A stretch of DNA of 38,959 bases from Miniimonas arenae (GTDB taxonomy: Bacteria; Actinomycetota; Actinomycetes; Actinomycetales; Beutenbergiaceae), in assembly GCF_006351005.1 (NCBI RefSeq), contig NZ_VENP01000031.1:1-38959 (forward strand), read 5' to 3'. A program made the translations under genes and the position numbers. Positions 30,824-38,959 of the stretch are shown here, piece by piece (position 1 is the first letter of the stretch; each line of letters begins with the position of its first letter). The notes below the pieces were generated by a model. It was given only the letters and a program-made list of their open reading frames with translations, was not told the DNA's origin and ran no database searches.

Positions 30824-32407
30824 GTGCTGCGCGCCTACCCCGCGGCGGACGTCCGGGCCGCCGAGGAGCCGCTCCTGGCGGCCGGTGCTCCCCTCATGGC
30901 GACGGCCGCGCGGGCGGTGGAGCTCGCCGTCGTGCACGCGCTGCGTGAGCGCACCGGTGGCGTGGCCGGTGGACGCGTCGTGGTGCTCGTCGGCGCCGGC
31001 AACAACGGCGGCGACGGACTGTACGCGGCCGCGGGGCTCGCGCGCCGCGGCGTCGGCGTGCACGTGCTCACGACGTCGGAACATCCGCAAGCCGGCGGGC
31101 TCGCCGCCCTGCGCGGCGGGACCGCGCGCCTGGTGCCGCTCGCGCAGGCGTGGCCCGCGCAGGCGCTGCGGGCCGTGGCCGACGCGGTCGGGCCGGCCGA
31201 CGTCGTGGTGGACGCGGTCGCCGGCACCGGCGTGACGGGCGGCCTGCGCGGCGTGGCCGCGACCGTGGTCGCCGCGACGCGCGAGGCCGTCGAGGCAGCT
31301 CCGCGGCCGCCGGTCGTCGTCGCCGTCGACGTCCCCTCCGGCATCGGGGTGGACGACGGCGCGCTCCCCGGTGACGTGCTGCCCGCCGACGTCACCGTGA
31401 CGATGGGGGTCGCCAAGCCCGGCCTGCTGCTGCCGCCGGCGACCGTCTGCGCGGGTCGCGTCGAGGTGGTCGACCTCGGCCTGGACCTCACGCGTCGGAC
31501 GCCGGCGGCCGCGCGGCTCACGGACGCCGACGTGGCCGACCTGTGGCCCGTGCCCCACCGCGAGGACCACAAGTACTCCCGCGGCGTCCTCGGGGTCGTG
31601 GCCGGGTCGGACCGCTACCCGGGCGCCGCGGTGCTCGCGACGTCGGCGGCCGCGCCGCTGGCCGGGATGGTGCGCTACGTCGGGCCCGACGGCGCAGCCC
31701 GGCACGTGCTCGACGCGCGCCCGGAGGTCGTGGTCGGGTCGGGCCGGGTGCAGGCCTGGGTCGTCGGCCCCGGAGTGGGCGACGACGACACCGCGCGGCT
31801 GCGCGACGTGCGCCGGGCGCTCGCGGAAGGGCTCGGCACCGTGCCCGTCGTCGTCGACGCCGGTGCGCTGCTCGCGCTGCCCGAGCGGGTCGCGCCCACC
31901 GCGGTGCTCACGCCGCATGCGGGCGAGCTCGCGCGCCTGCTCTCGGCGTGGGGGCGCTCCACGAGCCGCGCCGACGTCGAGGCGGACCCGGTGGGTGCGG
32001 CGCGCCGCGCGGTGTCGTTCACCGGCGCGACGGTGCTGCTCAAGGGGGCCACGACGCTCGTCGTCGGGCCGTCCGAGGAGGGTGTGGCGGGCTCATCGGA
32101 CGGAACGGGCACGGTGTACGCGCAGGCCGACGGGACCGACTGGCTGGCCACCGCCGGCGCCGGCGACGTGCTGGCGGGCGTGCTCGGCGCGCTGCTCGCC
32201 GGGCGGAGCGCGGACGTCATGGCGCACCCGCCGCTCGCGGCGCGGCTCGCCGCGGCCGCCGCACTCGTGCACGGCCGCGCGGCCCGCGCCGCGTCGGCCG
32301 GCGGACCGCTCGTCGCGCTGGACGTCGCGCGAGCCGTCCCCGGCGTGGTCGCCACGCTGCTCGCGCCGCCGCTGCGCACCGGCCCGGGTGGGAGAATGCC
32401 CGGGTGA
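30824..32407 (+). CDS. nnrD: Bifunctional NAD(P)H-hydrate epimerase / dehydratase
   Basis: Repairs damaged NADH and NADPH hydrates. The 527-residue fusion has an N-terminal epimerase domain (about 1-225) with GAGNNGGDG (57-65) and AVDVPSGIGVDDG. The C-terminal ribokinase-like ADP-dependent dehydratase domain (about 235-527) has HKYSRGVLGVVAGSDRYPGA and the catalytic Asp448 in GAGDVLAG. GTG 30824 has GGAGGG (30811-30816) 7 nt upstream. TGA overlaps the alr GTG. The symbol nnrD is used although the protein covers both activities. Confidence 0.94.
   Translation: MLRAYPAADVRAAEEPLLAAGAPLMATAARAVELAVVHALRERTGGVAGGRVVVLVGAGNNGGDGLYAAAGLARRGVGVHVLTTSEHPQAGGLAALRGGTARLVPLAQAWPAQALRAVADAVGPADVVVDAVAGTGVTGGLRGVAATVVAATREAVEAAPRPPVVVAVDVPSGIGVDDGALPGDVLPADVTVTMGVAKPGLLLPPATVCAGRVEVVDLGLDLTRRTPAAARLTDADVADLWPVPHREDHKYSRGVLGVVAGSDRYPGAAVLATSAAAPLAGMVRYVGPDGAARHVLDARPEVVVGSGRVQAWVVGPGVGDDDTARLRDVRRALAEGLGTVPVVVDAGALLALPERVAPTAVLTPHAGELARLLSAWGRSTSRADVEADPVGAARRAVSFTGATVLLKGATTLVVGPSEEGVAGSSDGTGTVYAQADGTDWLATAGAGDVLAGVLGALLAGRSADVMAHPPLAARLAAAAALVHGRAARAASAGGPLVALDVARAVPGVVATLLAPPLRTGPGGRMPG
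32392..32397 (+). promoter_or_regulatory. Possible internal -10 box before alr
   Basis: GAGAAT ends 6 nt before GTG 32404, inside the 3' end of nnrD. It matches the spacing of the other leaderless-type boxes, but alr is also coupled by a GTGA overlap, so the box may be fortuitous. Confidence 0.3.
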
Positions 32408-33558
32408 GCCATCCCGACTCCTTCCCGGCGCGCGCCGTCGTGGACCTGGACGCGATCGCAGGGAACGTGGCCAGGCTCGCCGGCTACGCGCGCGGGGCGC
32501 AGGTGATGGCGGTGGTGAAGGCGGACGCCTACGGGCACGGTCTGGTGCCGGCGGCGCAGGCAGCGCAGGCGGGCGGTGCGACGTGGCTGGGCGTGGCCCA
32601 GCTCGCCGAGGCGATGGACCTGCGCGAGGCCGGAGTTGCGGGGCGCATCCTCACCTGGATCTTCTCCCCGGGGGCGGATCTCGCCCGCGCCCTCGCGCTC
32701 GACCTGGACCTCTCGGTCGGGGCGCCGTGGGCGCTCGCGGAGGTGGAAGCGGCCGCACGGGCGACGGGTCGCACGCCGCGCGTGCACCTCAAGGTCGACA
32801 CCGGGCTCGGCCGCGGCGGCCAGTTCCTTCCGGCCTGGAGCGACATGCTCGCGGACGCGCTGCGCGCCCAGGCCGAGGGCGTGCTCGAGGTGGTCGGCGT
32901 GTGGTCGCACCTCGCGTCGGCCGAGGACGTCACGTCGCCGGTCACCGACGCGCAGCTCGAGGTGTTCACCGAGGCCGTCGCGCGGGCCGAGGCGGGCGGG
33001 GCGCACCTGGAGGTGCGACACCTGTCCAACTCCGCCGCGACGATCGTGAACCCGGCGATGCGGTTCGACCTCGTCCGCCCCGGGCTCGCGGTGTTCGGGC
33101 TCAGCCCCGTGCCAGGCCGCGCCAGCGCCGAGCTGGGACTGCGGCCCGCGATGCGCGTGGAGGCCGCGGTGATGCTCGTCAAGGACGCGCGAGCCGGCCA
33201 GGGGGTCTCCTACGGCCACACCTACACGACCGCCGCCGACACGGTGCTCGCCGACATCCCGCTGGGCTACGCGGACGGGATCCCGCGGCACGCCTCGAAC
33301 GCGGGCCCGATGCTCCTGGGCGGGCGGGTGCGCCGGATCGCGGGGCGGGTCTGCATGGACCAGGTCGTCGTCGACCTCGAGGGCGACCGCGGAGTGCGCG
33401 CGGGCGACGTCGCGGTGCTGTTCGGCCCGGGGGACGACGGCGAGCCCACCGCCCAGGACTGGGCGGAGGCGGCCGGCACGATCTCCTACGAGATCGTCAC
33501 GAGGCTCGGCGCGCGCATCCCGCGCGTCTACACGGGAACGGCGGGGCTTCCGGCATGA
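32404..33558 (+). CDS. alr: Alanine racemase
   Basis: PLP enzyme giving D-alanine for peptidoglycan. The 384-residue protein has the PLP lysine Lys39 in AVVKADAYGHG, the second-base Tyr270 in GVSYGHTYTT, and the conserved IPLGYADGIPRH and GRVCMDQVVVDL blocks. GTG 32404 overlaps the nnrD stop. Its stop overlaps the tsaE ATG (ATGA). Position next to glmS and glmM fits a supply line for the cell wall. Confidence 0.96.
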   Translation: MSHPDSFPARAVVDLDAIAGNVARLAGYARGAQVMAVVKADAYGHGLVPAAQAAQAGGATWLGVAQLAEAMDLREAGVAGRILTWIFSPGADLARALALDLDLSVGAPWALAEVEAAARATGRTPRVHLKVDTGLGRGGQFLPAWSDMLADALRAQAEGVLEVVGVWSHLASAEDVTSPVTDAQLEVFTEAVARAEAGGAHLEVRHLSNSAATIVNPAMRFDLVRPGLAVFGLSPVPGRASAELGLRPAMRVEAAVMLVKDARAGQGVSYGHTYTTAADTVLADIPLGYADGIPRHASNAGPMLLGGRVRRIAGRVCMDQVVVDLEGDRGVRAGDVAVLFGPGDDGEPTAQDWAEAAGTISYEIVTRLGARIPRVYTGTAGLPA

Positions 33559-34091
33559 CGACGCGCGACACGACGCAGCAGGCAGCCGGCGATCCCGTCC
33601 ACGTGCAGCTGCCCTCGGCGGCCGCGACCCGCGCGCTCGGTGAGGCGCTCGCCGCCGAGCTGCGCGCGGGAGACCTCGTGCTGCTCGTCGGCGACCTTGG
33701 CGCCGGCAAGACCACCCTGACGCAGGGCCTCGGTGCGGCGCTGGGCGTGCGCGGCCAGGTCGCCTCGCCGACGTTCGTCATCGCGCGGGAGCACCCCAGC
33801 ACCGTGGGCGGGCCGGCGCTCGTGCACGTCGACGCCTACCGCCTCGGCGGTCTGGCGGAGCTCGACGCGCTGGACCTGGACTCCACCCTCGAGGAGTCGG
33901 TCACGGTGGTGGAGTGGGGCGGCGGCCTTGCCGAGGCGCTCGCGGAGGACAGGCTCGAGGTGACTCTCGACCGGGCGCGCGGCGCCGAGGAGGACTCGGG
34001 TCGTCGGGCCGGGCTGCGGGCGGTCGGCCCGCGCTGGGCGGACGTGGACCTGGCGGCGATCGTCGCCGTCGTGGACGAAGGAGAACGGTGA
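33555..34091 (+). CDS. tsaE: tRNA t6A synthesis ATPase TsaE
   Basis: ATPase that works with TsaB and TsaD in transferring threonylcarbamoyl to A37 of ANN-decoding tRNAs. The 178-residue protein has Walker A GDLGAGKTT (46-54), the PTFVIAREH switch and HVDAYRLGGLAELDALDLD, as in the family, with VVEWGGGL. ATG 33555 overlaps the alr stop. The C-terminus after about 150 is variable. GTGA overlap with tsaB. Confidence 0.94.
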   Translation: MTTRDTTQQAAGDPVHVQLPSAAATRALGEALAAELRAGDLVLLVGDLGAGKTTLTQGLGAALGVRGQVASPTFVIAREHPSTVGGPALVHVDAYRLGGLAELDALDLDSTLEESVTVVEWGGGLAEALAEDRLEVTLDRARGAEEDSGRRAGLRAVGPRWADVDLAAIVAVVDEGER

Positions 34092-34804
34092 GGATCCTCG
34101 CGATCGACACCTCGGCGGGCACGCAGGTCGCGCTCGTCGTCGACGGCGTGGTGGCGGCGCGGGCCGGCACCCCCGAGGGACGCGGCCACGCCGAGCACAC
34201 CACGCCGTTCGTGCACGACGTGCTCGCGGCGGGCGGACTCGAGCCGCGCGACCTCGACCTCGTCGCGGTCGGCACGGGACCCGCGCCCTTCACGGGGCTG
34301 CGGGTCGGGCTCGTCAGCGCCCAGCTCCTCGGCCGCGCCGCGGGGGTGGCCGTGGCCGGCGTGCCGAGCCTCGAGGCATGGGCGCAGGGGTGGTTCGAAC
34401 GCTGCGCTGACGGAGCTGCCGGCCCGTCCGCCGCAGGCCCGGGCGAGGTCCGCGTCGCCACCGACGCGCGACGTCGCGAGGTCTACACCGCGCGCTACGT
34501 CGCGGGCGAGCACGGACCGGTCGCGGTGGACGGCCCGCGCGTGGTTCGCCCGGCCGACCTCGCGGACGAGGTGACGCGCGAGCGCGCGGCGGGGATCGCC
34601 GTCGTCGGCCCCGGTCTGTACCCCGACGTGCTGGGCGACGTCGCGGACGTGCCGTTCGACGTCGCCCACCTCGCGGCGATCGCCTGGCTGCGGACGCAGG
34701 CGGGCGAGCCCGTGCCGGTCGAGCCGCTCTACCTGCGCCGGCCCGACGTGCACGGCGTGCTCGGGGACGCGCTCGCCGTCGGAGCCCCGGAGGCCGCGCG
34801 GTGA
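34088..34804 (+). CDS. tsaB: tRNA t6A synthesis scaffold TsaB
   Basis: TsaB is the inactive homologue that dimerises with TsaD. The 238-residue product [17 protein letters not shown] has the ASKHA fold start and [23 protein letters not shown], typical of TsaB; it lacks the HxxxH metal motif of TsaD. AAGGAG (34078-34083) lies 4 nt before GTG 34088, which overlaps the tsaE stop. The gene is followed with a GTGA overlap by rimI. Confidence 0.94.
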
Positions 34805-36183
34805 GCGGGCCGAGGCTGCGCCCGATGACGGCGCGCGACCTGGACGTCGTCGCCGCGCTCGAGCCGGAGCTCTTCGGGGCGGGCGCGTGGTCGCGCAGCA
34901 CGTACGAGGACCAGATCGAGCGGACCGACCGGGTCTACCTCGTGGCCGAGCTCGACGGCGAGGTCGCCGGCTATGCGGGCGTCGCGCTGGAGCCGGAGTG
35001 GGACATCATGACGGTGGGCGTCGCGCCGCAGGCACGACGGCGTGGGGTCGCCACCGCGCTCGTCGAGGCGCTCGTCGACGCGGCCCGGTCCGCGGGCGGG
35101 CGCGAGCTGTTCCTCGAGGTGCGCGCGCACGACGGCGGTGCGCAGCAGCTCTACCGCAACGCCGGGTTCGCCCCGGTGGGGCTGCGGCGGCGGTACTACC
35201 AGCCGGAGGGCGCGGACGCCGTCGTGATGCGACTCGCGCTCGACCCGACGGACGCCGGGCCGGTCGGGCCGGTCGGCGCGGAGGCGGTGGACGACGGGTC
35301 GGTCGAAGGGGACGGGTCCGCAGTCGGACCATTCGTCGACGTCGCCACCGCGTACGCCTGGGTGTGGAGCGAGCACGCGCCGGTGGTGCTCGACGTGCGC
35401 TGGGCGCTCGGGCGCACCGACGGGCGCGAGCAGTACGCGCAGGGGCACCTGCCGGGCGCGGTGTTCGTGGACCTGGACACCGAGCTGGCCGGTCCGGCGT
35501 CGCCCGAGGCCGGTCGTCACCCGCTGCCGGATCTGGACGTGCTGCAGGCCGCGGCGCGGCGGTGGGGCGTGCGCGGCGACTCGCGCGTCCTGGTCTACGA
35601 CGACGCGGGCGGCACCTCGGCGGCGCGCGCGTGGTGGCTGCTGCGCTGGGCGGGGGTGCGCGACGTCGTGCTGCTCGACGGCGGCCTGCGCGCCTGGGTC
35701 GAGGCGGGCCACCACCTCGAGGACGGGCACGTGCGGCCGCGGCCGGGGGACGTCACGCTGACGAGCGGCGCGATGCCGACGGTGGCCGCCGACGACATCG
35801 CGGTGCTGCCCGAGCGGGGCGGCGTGCTGCTCGACGCGCGGGCCGCGGAGCGGTTCCGCGGCGAGGTCGAGCCGGTCGATCCGCGCCCCGGACACATTCC
35901 GGGCGCCACGAGCGCGCCGACCCTGGCGAACCTCACCGCGGGCGGGTGGCTGCTGGAGGCCGAGGAGCTGCGCGAGCGGTTCGCGGCGCTCGGGGTCGAC
36001 GTCCCGGCGGCGGGTGCGCCCGAGCCCGGCTCGCGCCCGGTCGCCGTGTACTGCGGGTCCGGCGTGACGGCGTCGCACACGGTCGCCGTGCTCGCGTCGC
36101 TCGGCGTGACCGCGGCGCTGTACCCGGGGTCGTTCTCGCAGTGGAGCAGCGACCCCACGCGGCCGGTCGCCACCGGGCTCTAG
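34801..36183 (+). CDS. rimI: RimI acetyltransferase fused to a tandem-rhodanese sulfurtransferase
   Basis: One uninterrupted frame of 460 residues joins two enzymes. Residues 1-147 are a RimI-type GNAT domain, which acetylates protein N-termini (S18 in E. coli): acetyl-CoA loop [10 protein letters not shown] (77-86) and [18 protein letters not shown] (106-123) with Tyr118. A Gly/Val/Asp-rich linker spans 148-177. Rhodanese domain 1 (about 178-305) has DVRWALG and the inactive-type VYDDAGG. Domain 2 (about 325-460) has the active loop CGSGVTAS with Cys418, the 3-mercaptopyruvate-sulfurtransferase pattern. GTG overlaps the tsaB stop. No credible internal start for the second half (GTG 35287 has only a 2-nt spacer after GGAGG). 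Whether the product is cleaved is unknown. Confidence 0.9.
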
Positions 36184-36794
36184 AGGACGACGACGGCGTC
36201 GCTCACCTCGAGGCGAGCCGCGCGCGGGTGCGTGCCGTTCTCGGCGGCGGCCCAGCCGACGGTGAGCACGAGCTCGCTGCGCCAGCCGTTGCCGGCGAAG
36301 AGGTCGGCGTCCAGGCCGGCGCGGTCGAAGCCGGCCATCGGGCCGACGCTGAGGCCGCGGGCGCGCAGGGCGACGATGAGGTAGCCGATCTGGATGAGGG
36401 TGTTGGTGCGCGCCATCTCGAGGCGGCGCTCCTCCTGCGGCTCCAGGTCCTGCTCGAGCCCCACGCGGTGCGGGGCGAGCGTGCCGAGGTGGCGGTGGAA
36501 GCCCGGGTCCGCCACGGCGACCACGACGAGCGGGGCGGCGAGCGTCTTGTCGCGGTTGAAGCCCGCCATGTGGGCCGCGAGGCGCTCGCGGGACTCGCCC
36601 TGAGGCACGACGGCGAGGCGCAGCGGCGAGACATTCATCGCCGTCGGGCCCCAGCGCAGGACCTCGTAGGCCGCCTGGATCTCGGCGGGGTCGACGTCGC
36701 CGTCGACGTAGGTGTTGACGGTGCGCGCGTCGGTGAACAGGAGCGCGAGGGCGTCGTCGTCGAGGGCGGCGGGCGCCAGGAGGTCGAGGGTCAT
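36180..36794 (-). CDS. Nitroreductase-family protein, RutE/HadB-like
   Basis: FMN-dependent oxidoreductase of the nitroreductase superfamily. The 204-residue protein has [18 protein letters not shown] (18-35; Arg24, Asn27), [18 protein letters not shown] and a C-terminal half with [21 protein letters not shown]. These match malonic-semialdehyde reductase (RutE) relatives, but the rest of the rut pathway is absent, so the substrate is open. It lies backwards between rimI and tsaD, sharing the palindrome CTAG (36180-36183) as both stop codons with the rimI fusion. ATG 36794 has no clear ribosome site. Confidence 0.85.
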
Positions 36795-36875: not shown

Positions 36876-37970
36876 GTGAGCCAGCCCCCGGTCCAGCCTC
36901 TGGTCGACCCCTCGGTACCGCCGTTGGTCCTGGGCATCGAGTCCACCTGCGACGAGACGGGCGTGGCCCTCGTGCGGGGTCGCGAGCTGCTCGCCGACGT
37001 GACCGCGTCGTCCATGGACGAGCACGCCCGGTACGGCGGGATCGTGCCCGAGGTGGCCTCCCGCGCGCACCTCGAGGCGCTGCTGCCGTCGCTGGAGGCG
37101 GCGCTCGCGAGCGCCGAGGTGACGCTCGCGGACGTGGACGCGATCGCCGTCGCCTCGGGTCCTGGCCTCGTGGGATCGCTGACGGTCGGGACGGCGGGCG
37201 CGAAGGCGCTCGCGCTCGGCCTCGGGGTGCCGCTGTACGGCGTGAACCACGTGGTGGGCCACGCCGCCGTGGACGAGCTCGTGCACGGCCCGTTCCCCGA
37301 GCGGTTCCTCGCACTCGTCGTGTCCGGAGGGCACTCCTCGCTGCTGCTCGTGCGGGACATCGCGACGGACGTCGTCGAGCTCGGACAGACCCTGGACGAC
37401 GCCGCGGGCGAGGCGTTCGACAAGGTGGGTCGGCTGCTGGGTCTGCCCTATCCGGGCGGGCCGCACGTCGACCGGCTGGCGCGCGAGGGCGACCCGACCG
37501 CGATCCCGTTCCCGCGTGGCCTGTCGAAGGGGCGCGAGCTGCTGCGCCACCCGTACGACTTCTCGTTCTCGGGCCTGAAGACCTCGGTGGCGCGCTACCT
37601 CGAGGCGCGCGAGGCGTCGGGTGAGCCGTTCTCGCGGGCGGATGTGGCGGCGTCGTTCTCCGAGGCGGTGGCCGATGTGCTCGTGACGAAGACGCTGCGC
37701 GCGTGCGAGGAGCACGGGGCGGACACGCTCGTCGTCGGGGGCGGGTTCTCCGCCAACTCGCGGCTGCGCGAGCTCGCCGCGGAGCGCTGCGCGCAGGCGG
37801 GGGTCGAGCTGCGGATCCCGCCGATCCGCTACTGCACCGACAACGGCGCGATGATCGCGGCGCTGGGCTCCGCCGTCGTGCGCGCGGGGCTGCCGTCGTC
37901 GCCGCTCGACCTCGCGGTCGACTCGCAGATGTCGCTCTCGGTGCCGGTGGTGCTGCCGCCTGCGGAGTGA
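36876..37970 (+). CDS. tsaD: tRNA N6-threonylcarbamoyladenosine transferase TsaD
   Basis: Catalytic subunit that attaches threonylcarbamoyl to A37 of tRNA. The 364-residue protein has an 18-residue tail, then [15 protein letters not shown] (19-33), the metal ligands His125 and His129 in [57 protein letters not shown] and [12 protein letters not shown], all intact. GTG 36876 has a leaderless-type box and no ribosome site. Normally continuous with tsaB and rimI; here a reverse gene of 615 bp intervenes. Confidence 0.96.
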
Positions 37971-38003: not shown

Positions 38004-38128
38004 TTGACTGGTCGCCCCGACGGATTGACTGGCCAGATCGCCGTGAGCCGTCTCGACGGCGGTGTTTCCCCAGGTCGCGGTGACCGCGGAGAACTCTGAC
38101 CAGTCCGTGTGCGCAGGCGACCAGTCAA
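38004..38128. repeat. 125-bp symmetric inverted-repeat element
   Basis: The arms start with an exact 13-bp inverted repeat, TTGACTGGTCGCC (38004-38016) and GGCGACCAGTCAA (38116-38128). Inside, GACTGGCCAGA (38027-38037) matches TCTGACCAGTC (38095-38105) except for one position. The four GACTGG/CCAGTC cores are 21 bp apart on each side and exactly symmetric about 38066. The centre holds two further hairpins, GCCGT/ACGGC (38047-38060) and CGCGG/CCGCG (38076-38088). It lies between tsaD and the GNAT gene. Confidence 0.8.
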
Positions 38129-38153
38129 TGTGTCAGCGAGGCGGCCCCGGTGG

Positions 38154-38159
38154 CACGAT
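38154..38159 (+). promoter_or_regulatory. -10 box of the GNAT gene
   Basis: CACGAT stands exactly 6 nt before ATG 38166, with no ribosome site, as in the other leaderless-type genes. Confidence 0.35.
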
Positions 38160-38165
38160 CGGGCC

Positions 38166-38831
38166 ATGTCGCTGACCGACCTCTGGCCGGCCGCGGGCGT
38201 TCGCGTCCGCGCCGGCGACCTCGAGCTGCGGTGGATCGACGACGACCTGCTCGTCGCCCTCGCCGAGCTCGCCTCCCGCGGCGTGCACGTGCCCGACGCC
38301 ATGCCGTTCACGGTTCCGTGGACGCGCGGCACTCCCACGCAGGTCGCGCGCAGCGTGATCGCCTACCAGTGGGCCGCGCGCGGCCGCGTCGGTCCCGACG
38401 ACCTTCGGCTCGAGCTCGCGGTTCTCGTCGACGGCGTGCCGGTCGGCATCCAGGGCGCGGGCGGCGCCGACTGGGCGGTCATGCGCACGGCGGAGACCGG
38501 GTCGTGGCTCGGACTCGAGCACCAGGGACGCGGCATCGGCACGCGGATGCGCGTGCTCATGCTCGCGCTGCTCTTCGACGGACTTGGCGCCGAGGAGGTG
38601 ACGTCGGCGGCCTGGCTCGACAACCCGGCGTCCCACGCGGTCTCGCGCCGCGTCGGGTACGAGGACAACGGCATGCGGCGGCTCGTCCGCGAGGGTGGCG
38701 TCGCGATCAACCAGGGCTACCGGATGGCCCGGCCGCGGTGGGAGCAGGTGCGCGAGGCGAACCTCGCGCTGCTCGCCGGCCCGATCGTGCTCGACGGCGT
38801 CGCTCGCCTGCGCGAGCAACTCGCGGAGTAG
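38166..38831 (+). CDS. GNAT-family N-acetyltransferase
   Basis: A 221-residue acetyltransferase of RimJ/RimL-like type. The acetyl-CoA loop is HQGRGIGTRM (119-128). LDNPASHAVSRRVGYEDNG (151-169) is the conserved acceptor-side segment. The N-terminal VRAGDLELRWIDDDLL is also typical. The substrate is not predictable from sequence. Chosen start ATG 38166 gives MSLTDLWPAAG; an in-frame start at 38109 would run into the inverted-repeat element. It lies alone between two repeat elements. Confidence 0.85.
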   Translation: MSLTDLWPAAGVRVRAGDLELRWIDDDLLVALAELASRGVHVPDAMPFTVPWTRGTPTQVARSVIAYQWAARGRVGPDDLRLELAVLVDGVPVGIQGAGGADWAVMRTAETGSWLGLEHQGRGIGTRMRVLMLALLFDGLGAEEVTSAAWLDNPASHAVSRRVGYEDNGMRRLVREGGVAINQGYRMARPRWEQVREANLALLAGPIVLDGVARLREQLAE

Positions 38832-38875
38832 GCGGCGTACGAGGCCGCGCCGAGGGGCTCGCGGGCAACAGAGAT

Positions 38876-38959
38876 CCTCTCGCGAAAGGACGGACTTCCT
38901 CTCGCGAAAGGACGGACTTCCTCTCGCGAAAGGACGGACTTCCTCTCGCGAAAGGACGG
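38876..38959. repeat. 22-bp tandem repeat array, at least 3.8 copies, open at the window end
   Basis: Copies at 38876-38897, 38898-38919, 38920-38941 and 38942-38959 (cut by the window). All have the 19-nt core CCTCTCGCGAAAGGACGGA seen at 21840, here followed by CTT. It begins 44 nt after the GNAT stop. The array continues beyond the sequence. Confidence 0.92.

Follow-up and report, generated by a model that had tools for sequence, protein, structure and literature searches.

The DNA analysed here, referred to as the window, is a stretch of 38,959 nt from Miniimonas arenae (contig NZ_VENP01000031.1). At positions 34801-36183 of its plus strand we observed a single uninterrupted frame with a GTG start, which encodes 460 aa and comprises a RimI domain, a short linker and a tandem-rhodanese sulfurtransferase. 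The features of the locus are the following (bit scores and cut-offs in brackets):

30824..32407, plus strand: nnrD-like NAD(P)H-hydrate epimerase/dehydratase, head of the run (TIGR00197 104.4 bits, cut-off 88.6; TIGR00196 96.9 bits, below its cut-off of 129.85)
32404..33558, plus strand: alr, alanine racemase (TIGR00492 310.4 bits, cut-off 168; 4-nt overlaps with nnrD and tsaE)
33555..34091, plus strand: tsaE (TIGR00150 91.3 bits, cut-off 60.1; 4-nt overlap with tsaB)
34088..34804, plus strand: tsaB (TIGR03725 151.2 bits, cut-off 69.3)
34789..34804, plus strand: Shine-Dalgarno sequence GGAGG, and GTGA in which the start overlaps the tsaB stop (from the sequence)
34801..35241, plus strand: RimI GNAT N-acetyltransferase domain, aa 1-147 (TIGR01575; fold match to 2cnm)
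35242..35313, plus strand: linker with GPVGAE, about aa 148-171, about 24 aa (low pLDDT, coding G+C pattern)
35314..36183, plus strand: tandem-rhodanese sulfurtransferase, 3-mercaptopyruvate type by sequence, aa 172-460 (two PF00581 stretches)
36180..36794, minus strand: malonic semialdehyde reductase-like nitroreductase, convergent (NF003768 202.1 bits, cut-off 152)
36876..37970, plus strand: tsaD (TIGR03723 400.7 bits, cut-off 296.1)

The initial annotation had described one frame that carries RimI, a linker and both rhodanese domains, and this was confirmed by the frame itself, by hmmscan, by an AlphaFold model and by sister genomes. Using hmmscan we found Pfam Acetyltransf_1 at aa 28-123 (70.7 bits) and PF00581 Rhodanese in two stretches of the fusion (93.8 bits in all). 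The CGSGVTAS loop begins at Cys418 in the C-terminal rhodanese domain and is intact as claimed, and the active-site regions of both halves are intact by sequence as well. The computed mass of 48,359 Da (~48.4 kDa) agrees with the proposed protein of roughly 48 kDa. A hidden stop in the linker region had been considered as an objection to the fusion, but the frame is open throughout, and the linker carries the G+C signature of coding sequence: the values at codon positions 1/2/3 are 0.90/0.59/0.90, compared to 0.82/0.50/0.96 and 0.81/0.57/0.97 in the two domains. The proposed coupling to tsaB takes the form of a 4-nt overlap (GTGA) between the start of the fusion and the tsaB stop, with GGAGG located 7 nt upstream of the start. 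TsaB and the fusion are separate frames, and no TsaB-RimI chain is present in the window.

The fusion had also been placed inside a t6A operon. This holds in so far as it belongs to the same-strand run nnrD-alr-tsaE-tsaB-[rimI-sulfurtransferase] together with tsaE and tsaB, but the run ends with the fusion, and tsaD lies beyond the convergent nitroreductase-family gene, whose stop overlaps that of the fusion in a palindromic CTAG (36180-36183). The Mycobacterium tuberculosis operon is reported to have the order alr-tsaE-tsaB-rimI-tsaD-groES-groEL1, with rimI overlapping tsaD directly (PMC5335608). The alr-tsaE-tsaB-rimI order with 4-bp overlaps is common to both, whereas here the fused sulfurtransferase and the convergent gene stand between rimI and tsaD. 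At the right end of the window (38831-38959) we noticed repeated SRERTDFLSRKDGLPLAKGR-like units in one frame, which are directly preceded by a second GNAT gene (38109-38831).

Identity and predicted structure of the two halves

The TIGR01575 rimI model matched aa 13-143 with 92.6 bits (cut-off 86.4), and among its 11 matches in the whole genome the fusion was the only one above the cut-off. Aligning the predicted structure of aa 3-150 with RimI 2cnm resulted in Z 21.1 and an rmsd of 2.0 over 146 residues, with archaeal Ard1 4pv6 tied (Z 21.6). E106 and Y118 align with 2cnm and are the counterparts of E103 and Y115, the catalytic Glu and Tyr of Salmonella RimI. Both residues, as well as R80-R81-G82 of the acetyl-CoA loop, are invariant across ten aligned fused proteins, which were taken from two of the fused clades described below (four in all). 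These matches point to the N-terminal half as the RimI-type protein N-alpha-acetyltransferase of the cell, with a predicted rather than observed activity.

For the C-terminal half the closest solved sequence is E. coli SseA/3MST (1urh, 123.9 bits). The match to the curated 3MST equivalog NF008557 reached 145.7 bits against a cut-off of 250, and we therefore call this half 3MST-type and not a member of that equivalog. The fold of aa 173-460 was most similar to 3MST 5wqj (Z 34.9, rmsd 2.0, 276 residues aligned) and human 3MST 4jgt (Z 34.0); the thiosulfate sulfurtransferases 8q5z and 8agf tie with the 3MST folds in structure alignment, so that the fold alone cannot tell the sulfur donor. The enzymes with the best sequence and fold matches, E. 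coli SseA and human 3MST (1urh, 4jgt, 3olh) and 5wqj, likewise have two rhodanese domains and a CGSGVTA loop. Compared to E. coli SseA and human 3MST, the fusion adds an N-terminal GNAT enzyme. 3-Mercaptopyruvate sulfurtransferases carry two substrate-binding arginines: R351 aligns with an arginine of the E. coli and human enzymes, whereas the second arginine falls into a stretch of different length (EPVDPRPGH here), where R362 may replace it. Residues 418-424 and R351 are invariant in the same ten aligned fused proteins. The sequence is consistent with a 3-mercaptopyruvate-type sulfurtransferase and predicted persulfide carrier on Cys418, and from the invariance of the active-site residues in the ten proteins we infer that both halves are probably working enzymes.

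An assignment of this half to the mycobacterial SseA type was rejected with 44.9 bits to 3hzu, compared to 123.9 bits to E. coli SseA. The genome contains a second, unfused tandem rhodanese (on C114) which scores 457.2 bits against 3hzu and represents the mycobacterial SseA type; no SufE-like neighbour was seen among six ORFs of its locus (L002). M. tuberculosis SseA is a tandem-rhodanese sulfurtransferase reported to be activated by its neighbour Rv3284/SufE (PMC12375888); it shares the tandem-rhodanese layout with the sulfurtransferase half of the fusion but belongs to a different clade.

The AlphaFold model (46-row alignment; mean pLDDT 90.7, pTM 0.80) shows two confident domains. In the region between them the block means of pLDDT drop to 58 (aa 151-160) and 48 (aa 161-170), and aa 161-167 is the sole run of at least 3 residues with pLDDT under 50. 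The model suggests a flexible linker between two domains that fold separately, each with an active site of its own. The linker contains the motif GPVGAE (aa 156-161, window positions 35266-35283). In many split relatives (the window's family, Georgenia, f13) GPVGAE, GPVGSE or a similar motif forms a C-terminal tail of RimI beyond the GNAT fold (loci L105, L068, L016, L019, L022, L023, L025, L026, L029 and L030), and this tail is kept in the linker after fusion. The linkers of separate fused clades differ in length and sequence and are unconserved beyond the inherited GPVGAE tail.

Split and fused genes in related genomes

In the window's family, in which the window's own genus is represented by one genome, both parts were found in 24 of 24 genomes: 11 fused, 10 split and adjacent, and 3 split with 5-7 kb between them. 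The window-type fusion occurs in five sister genomes of three other genera, which form one starred clade with the window. In genus g7 (L073, L173, L174) 5-7 kb of extra DNA lies between rimI and the sulfurtransferase gene, and in G011 and G013 of this genus the latter still adjoins tsaD.

A sequencing or assembly error could have removed a stop or shifted the frame, and it is true that the assembly is a 148-contig draft and that relatives have split genes. The same fusion in these five other genomes excludes chance or error for the clade, and the codon bias of the linker is that of coding sequence; we consider an error extremely improbable.

For named actinobacteria we evaluated the best 80 loci of a longer candidate list, with flanks of up to 5 kb. 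rimI was nearby in 42 of these 80 (1 fused, 41 split, two of the latter 1.2 kb apart), the fused one being L074 of Cellulomonas cellasea NBRC 3753, while the flanks of the other 38 contained no rimI. No rimI or tsa gene was found within at most 5 kb of the same sulfurtransferase in Jiangella, Geodermatophilus, Rhodococcus, Frankia and others; flanks without rimI were also observed in Blastococcus, Actinoplanes, Arthrobacter and two Cellulomonas loci (L142, L145), and in Pseudactinotalea (L129) rimI is located 5.5 kb from the sulfurtransferase. Adjacency of the two genes is found in many Cellulomonadaceae, Sanguibacter, Georgenia and Ruania.

Family f9 comprised 221 genomes, of which best matches only were considered, and the order sample comprised 396 genomes. 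The junction was read in 79 f9 genomes, of which 4 are fused (G184, G483, G488, G511) and 75 split, the sulfurtransferase match beginning no more than 172 nt after the rimI stop; most of these genomes were selected because their open frame reached at least about 430 aa or because they ranked among the best matches, so that 4/79 is not a rate, and fusions with long linkers and low scores could be missed in the rest of f9. In the phylum sample of 396 genomes, which is thin and was searched at a strict threshold (E 1e-60), 35 genomes matched, and none except the window's reached the RimI half (earliest start aa 152). A match in G083 (f14) starting at aa 108 was rejected, as no RimI is present at this junction (L172).

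In total we obtained 120 same-strand loci with rimI and sulfurtransferase, distinct by sulfurtransferase DNA: 80 show a 4-nt ATGA/GTGA overlap, 20 another spacing, 5 a distance of more than 400 nt, and 15 are fused. In Cellulomonadaceae and relatives the sulfurtransferase gene has long been located next to rimI, and in most cases its start overlaps the rimI stop by 4 nt. At L016 (G021) and L019 (G015), both in g8, and at L155, L156 and L157 the two genes lie in one frame with a single TGA between them; such loci are candidates for being one step from fusion or for stop read-through. A cluster of the actinobacterial type, alr-tsaE-tsaB-rimI-sulfurtransferase-tsaD, is also present in L122, a MAG that bears the label Proteobacteria; this bin is probably mislabelled. 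In split g8 genomes the RimI tail reads GPVGAE or GPVGSE, AIEE and stop, and the GAGGAG codons of this tail look like a Shine-Dalgarno sequence of the sulfurtransferase gene.

We calculated a maximum-likelihood tree from 52 loci (15 fused, 37 split) picked from the wider locus set, with the linker excluded. The tree requires 4 changes between split and fused states, the starred branches alone force at least 4, and 0 of 500 shuffles were as low. The four fused clades consist of the window with G004, G005, G006, G022 and G023 (four genera), five g8 genomes, G184 with G511, and G483 with G488. The fused rows G184 and G511 have unusual composition and G002 has a long branch. The fusion is recurrent, with at least four changes between the two states. 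The tree by itself cannot separate gain from loss; since every fused clade has split loci as its neighbours on the tree, and since the ATGA/GTGA overlap occurs in 80 of the 120 loci, separate origins of the fusion are the simplest reading, and the direction of change would be from split to fused. The linker of G483 is the same as that of L074, and both are probably the same species. The records of Cellulomonas cellasea disagree: NBRC 3753 (L074/L154) is fused, while ET82 (L128) is split and groups with G489 on the tree.

For comparison we counted one-frame fusions of other gene pairs on nearly, not provably, identical loci: rimI-sulfurtransferase was fused in 15 of 120, tsaB-rimI in 0 of 120, tsaE-tsaB in 0 of 98 and alr-tsaE in 4 of 74. 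Because long frames at the rimI-sulfurtransferase junction are over-represented among the loci, these counts are not rates and the contrast between gene pairs is suggestive only. All 4 alr-tsaE fusions belong to genus g6 (G007-G010; L032, L033, L034, L036).

With the junctions at hand, it can be asked whether the long frame is an artefact of overlapping genes, with mostly a separate RimI and an internally started sulfurtransferase being produced and the fused chain as a minor product. In all five fused g8 (Ruania-group) genes (L012, L013, L014, L015, L017) the linker contains an in-frame ATG that is preceded, at a distance of 8-9 nt, by AGGAGG or AGGAG; in G022 an ATG follows GGAGG at 5 nt. 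Against this, no stop separates the halves, so that every ribosome initiating at rimI produces the fused chain. The window gene has four in-frame start candidates, each of which either lacks a Shine-Dalgarno match or has one of 4 nt at a spacing of 3 or 13 nt; no internal Shine-Dalgarno sequence is present in g111, and g5, g10, g73 and g113 have matches of at most 4 nt. The separate start of the rhodanese half that the initial annotation had considered thus has no good candidate in the window gene, while one exists in the Ruania-group fusions. We regard the artefact as very unlikely overall; judging from the start sites, some fusions (the Ruania group, possibly G022) may also yield free sulfurtransferase, and the window gene most likely gives the fused protein only.

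Possible meaning of the fusion

Why RimI belongs to the t6A gene cluster has long been puzzling. Sulfur matters for two t6A-specific enzymes, MtaB (ms2t6A) and TcdA (ct6A). Searching the whole genome (99.73% complete) we found no match above the cut-off for either enzyme: the best scores were 294.9 bits for MtaB (cut-off 357.05) and 49.4 bits for TcdA (cut-off 304); related proteins match below the cut-off here, likewise in most control genomes. A link between t6A modification and sulfur transfer, as suggested initially, was not supported by these searches, and elsewhere the sulfurtransferase occurs without rimI or tsa genes in its flanks. Lacking MtaB and TcdA over the cut-off, direct sulfur delivery to t6A-37 is unlikely in this genome. 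The sulfurtransferase might feed tRNA thiolation in general or H2S metabolism, as had also been proposed initially.

According to the initial annotation, RimI elsewhere stands beside TsaB or is fused to it, which agrees with PMC5335608 and PMC4926160, where TsaB-RimI fusions are reported for Mycobacterium leprae, Bordetella and Neisseria. In those fusions RimI is likewise merged with a neighbour from the t6A cluster, whereas here the partner is the downstream sulfurtransferase, which is not a t6A enzyme, and TsaB is separate. When tested by fragment complementation, Mycobacterium RimI interacted with TsaD and GroES, while no interaction was detected for TsaB (PMC4926160). It is also reported to acetylate N-terminal peptides of its neighbours, but not the folded proteins tried (PMC4926160, PMC5335608). 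Partnering of RimI with its neighbours is a known theme, while a sulfurtransferase as partner is apparently undescribed: among the papers listed by full-text searches aimed at a RimI-sulfurtransferase fusion, subscription papers aside, none describes it in title or abstract, and the initial concern that the architecture might be already described found no support there.

We favour, with a probability of about 70%, two enzymes that work independently but are tethered, the fusion having originated from operon neighbours with coupled translation. Separate genes with an ATGA/GTGA overlap would have become one frame several times, and the fusion would mainly fix 1:1 co-production and proximity rather than create a new reaction; the sulfurtransferase may be kept at this place as serving translation or protein quality control. 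The low-confidence linker and the match of each half to the fold of its own family argue for the tether. Passive merging, however, should hit the equally tight pairs tsaB-rimI (0/120) and tsaE-tsaB (0/98) too. As these remain unfused, the rimI-sulfurtransferase pair may be functionally special, or the RimI tail may simply be tolerant of additions.

If the pair were special, the two halves could form a coupled machine, in which the transfer of sulfur (as persulfide or H2S derived from 3-mercaptopyruvate) cooperates with acetylation by RimI or with the Tsa proteins that RimI binds, for instance when translation responds to the redox state. The recurrence of the fusion (four or more changes of state on the tree) in the absence of tsaB-rimI and tsaE-tsaB fusions would fit this, as would the adjacency of the two genes in many Cellulomonadaceae, Sanguibacter, Georgenia and Ruania and the reported interaction of Mycobacterium RimI with TsaD and GroES, though not TsaB (PMC4926160). 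The linker, however, is disordered in the model and unconserved save for its GPVGAE tail, 38 of the best 80 loci from named actinobacteria carry the sulfurtransferase without a rimI in the vicinity, and neither MtaB nor TcdA is found over the cut-off in the genome. We consider such a machine doubtful and prefer the tether.

Repeated independent fusion of two neighbours is a classical hint of joint function. In its most specific form, still less probable than a coupled machine in general, selection would have locked RimI and the sulfurtransferase together at least four times, and persulfide or H2S chemistry at Cys418 would act on, or be steered by, the N-terminal acetylation of S18, TsaD or GroES. 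Taken together, the architecture is real, recurrent, made of ordinary enzymes and apparently undescribed. The occurrence of fused and split versions in close relatives (the g8 Ruania group; g111 around Cellulomonas cellasea) makes a link between acetylation and sulfur directly testable. If Cys418 and acetylation did form one unit, it would be a switch tying the sulfur or redox state to translation in these actinobacteria.
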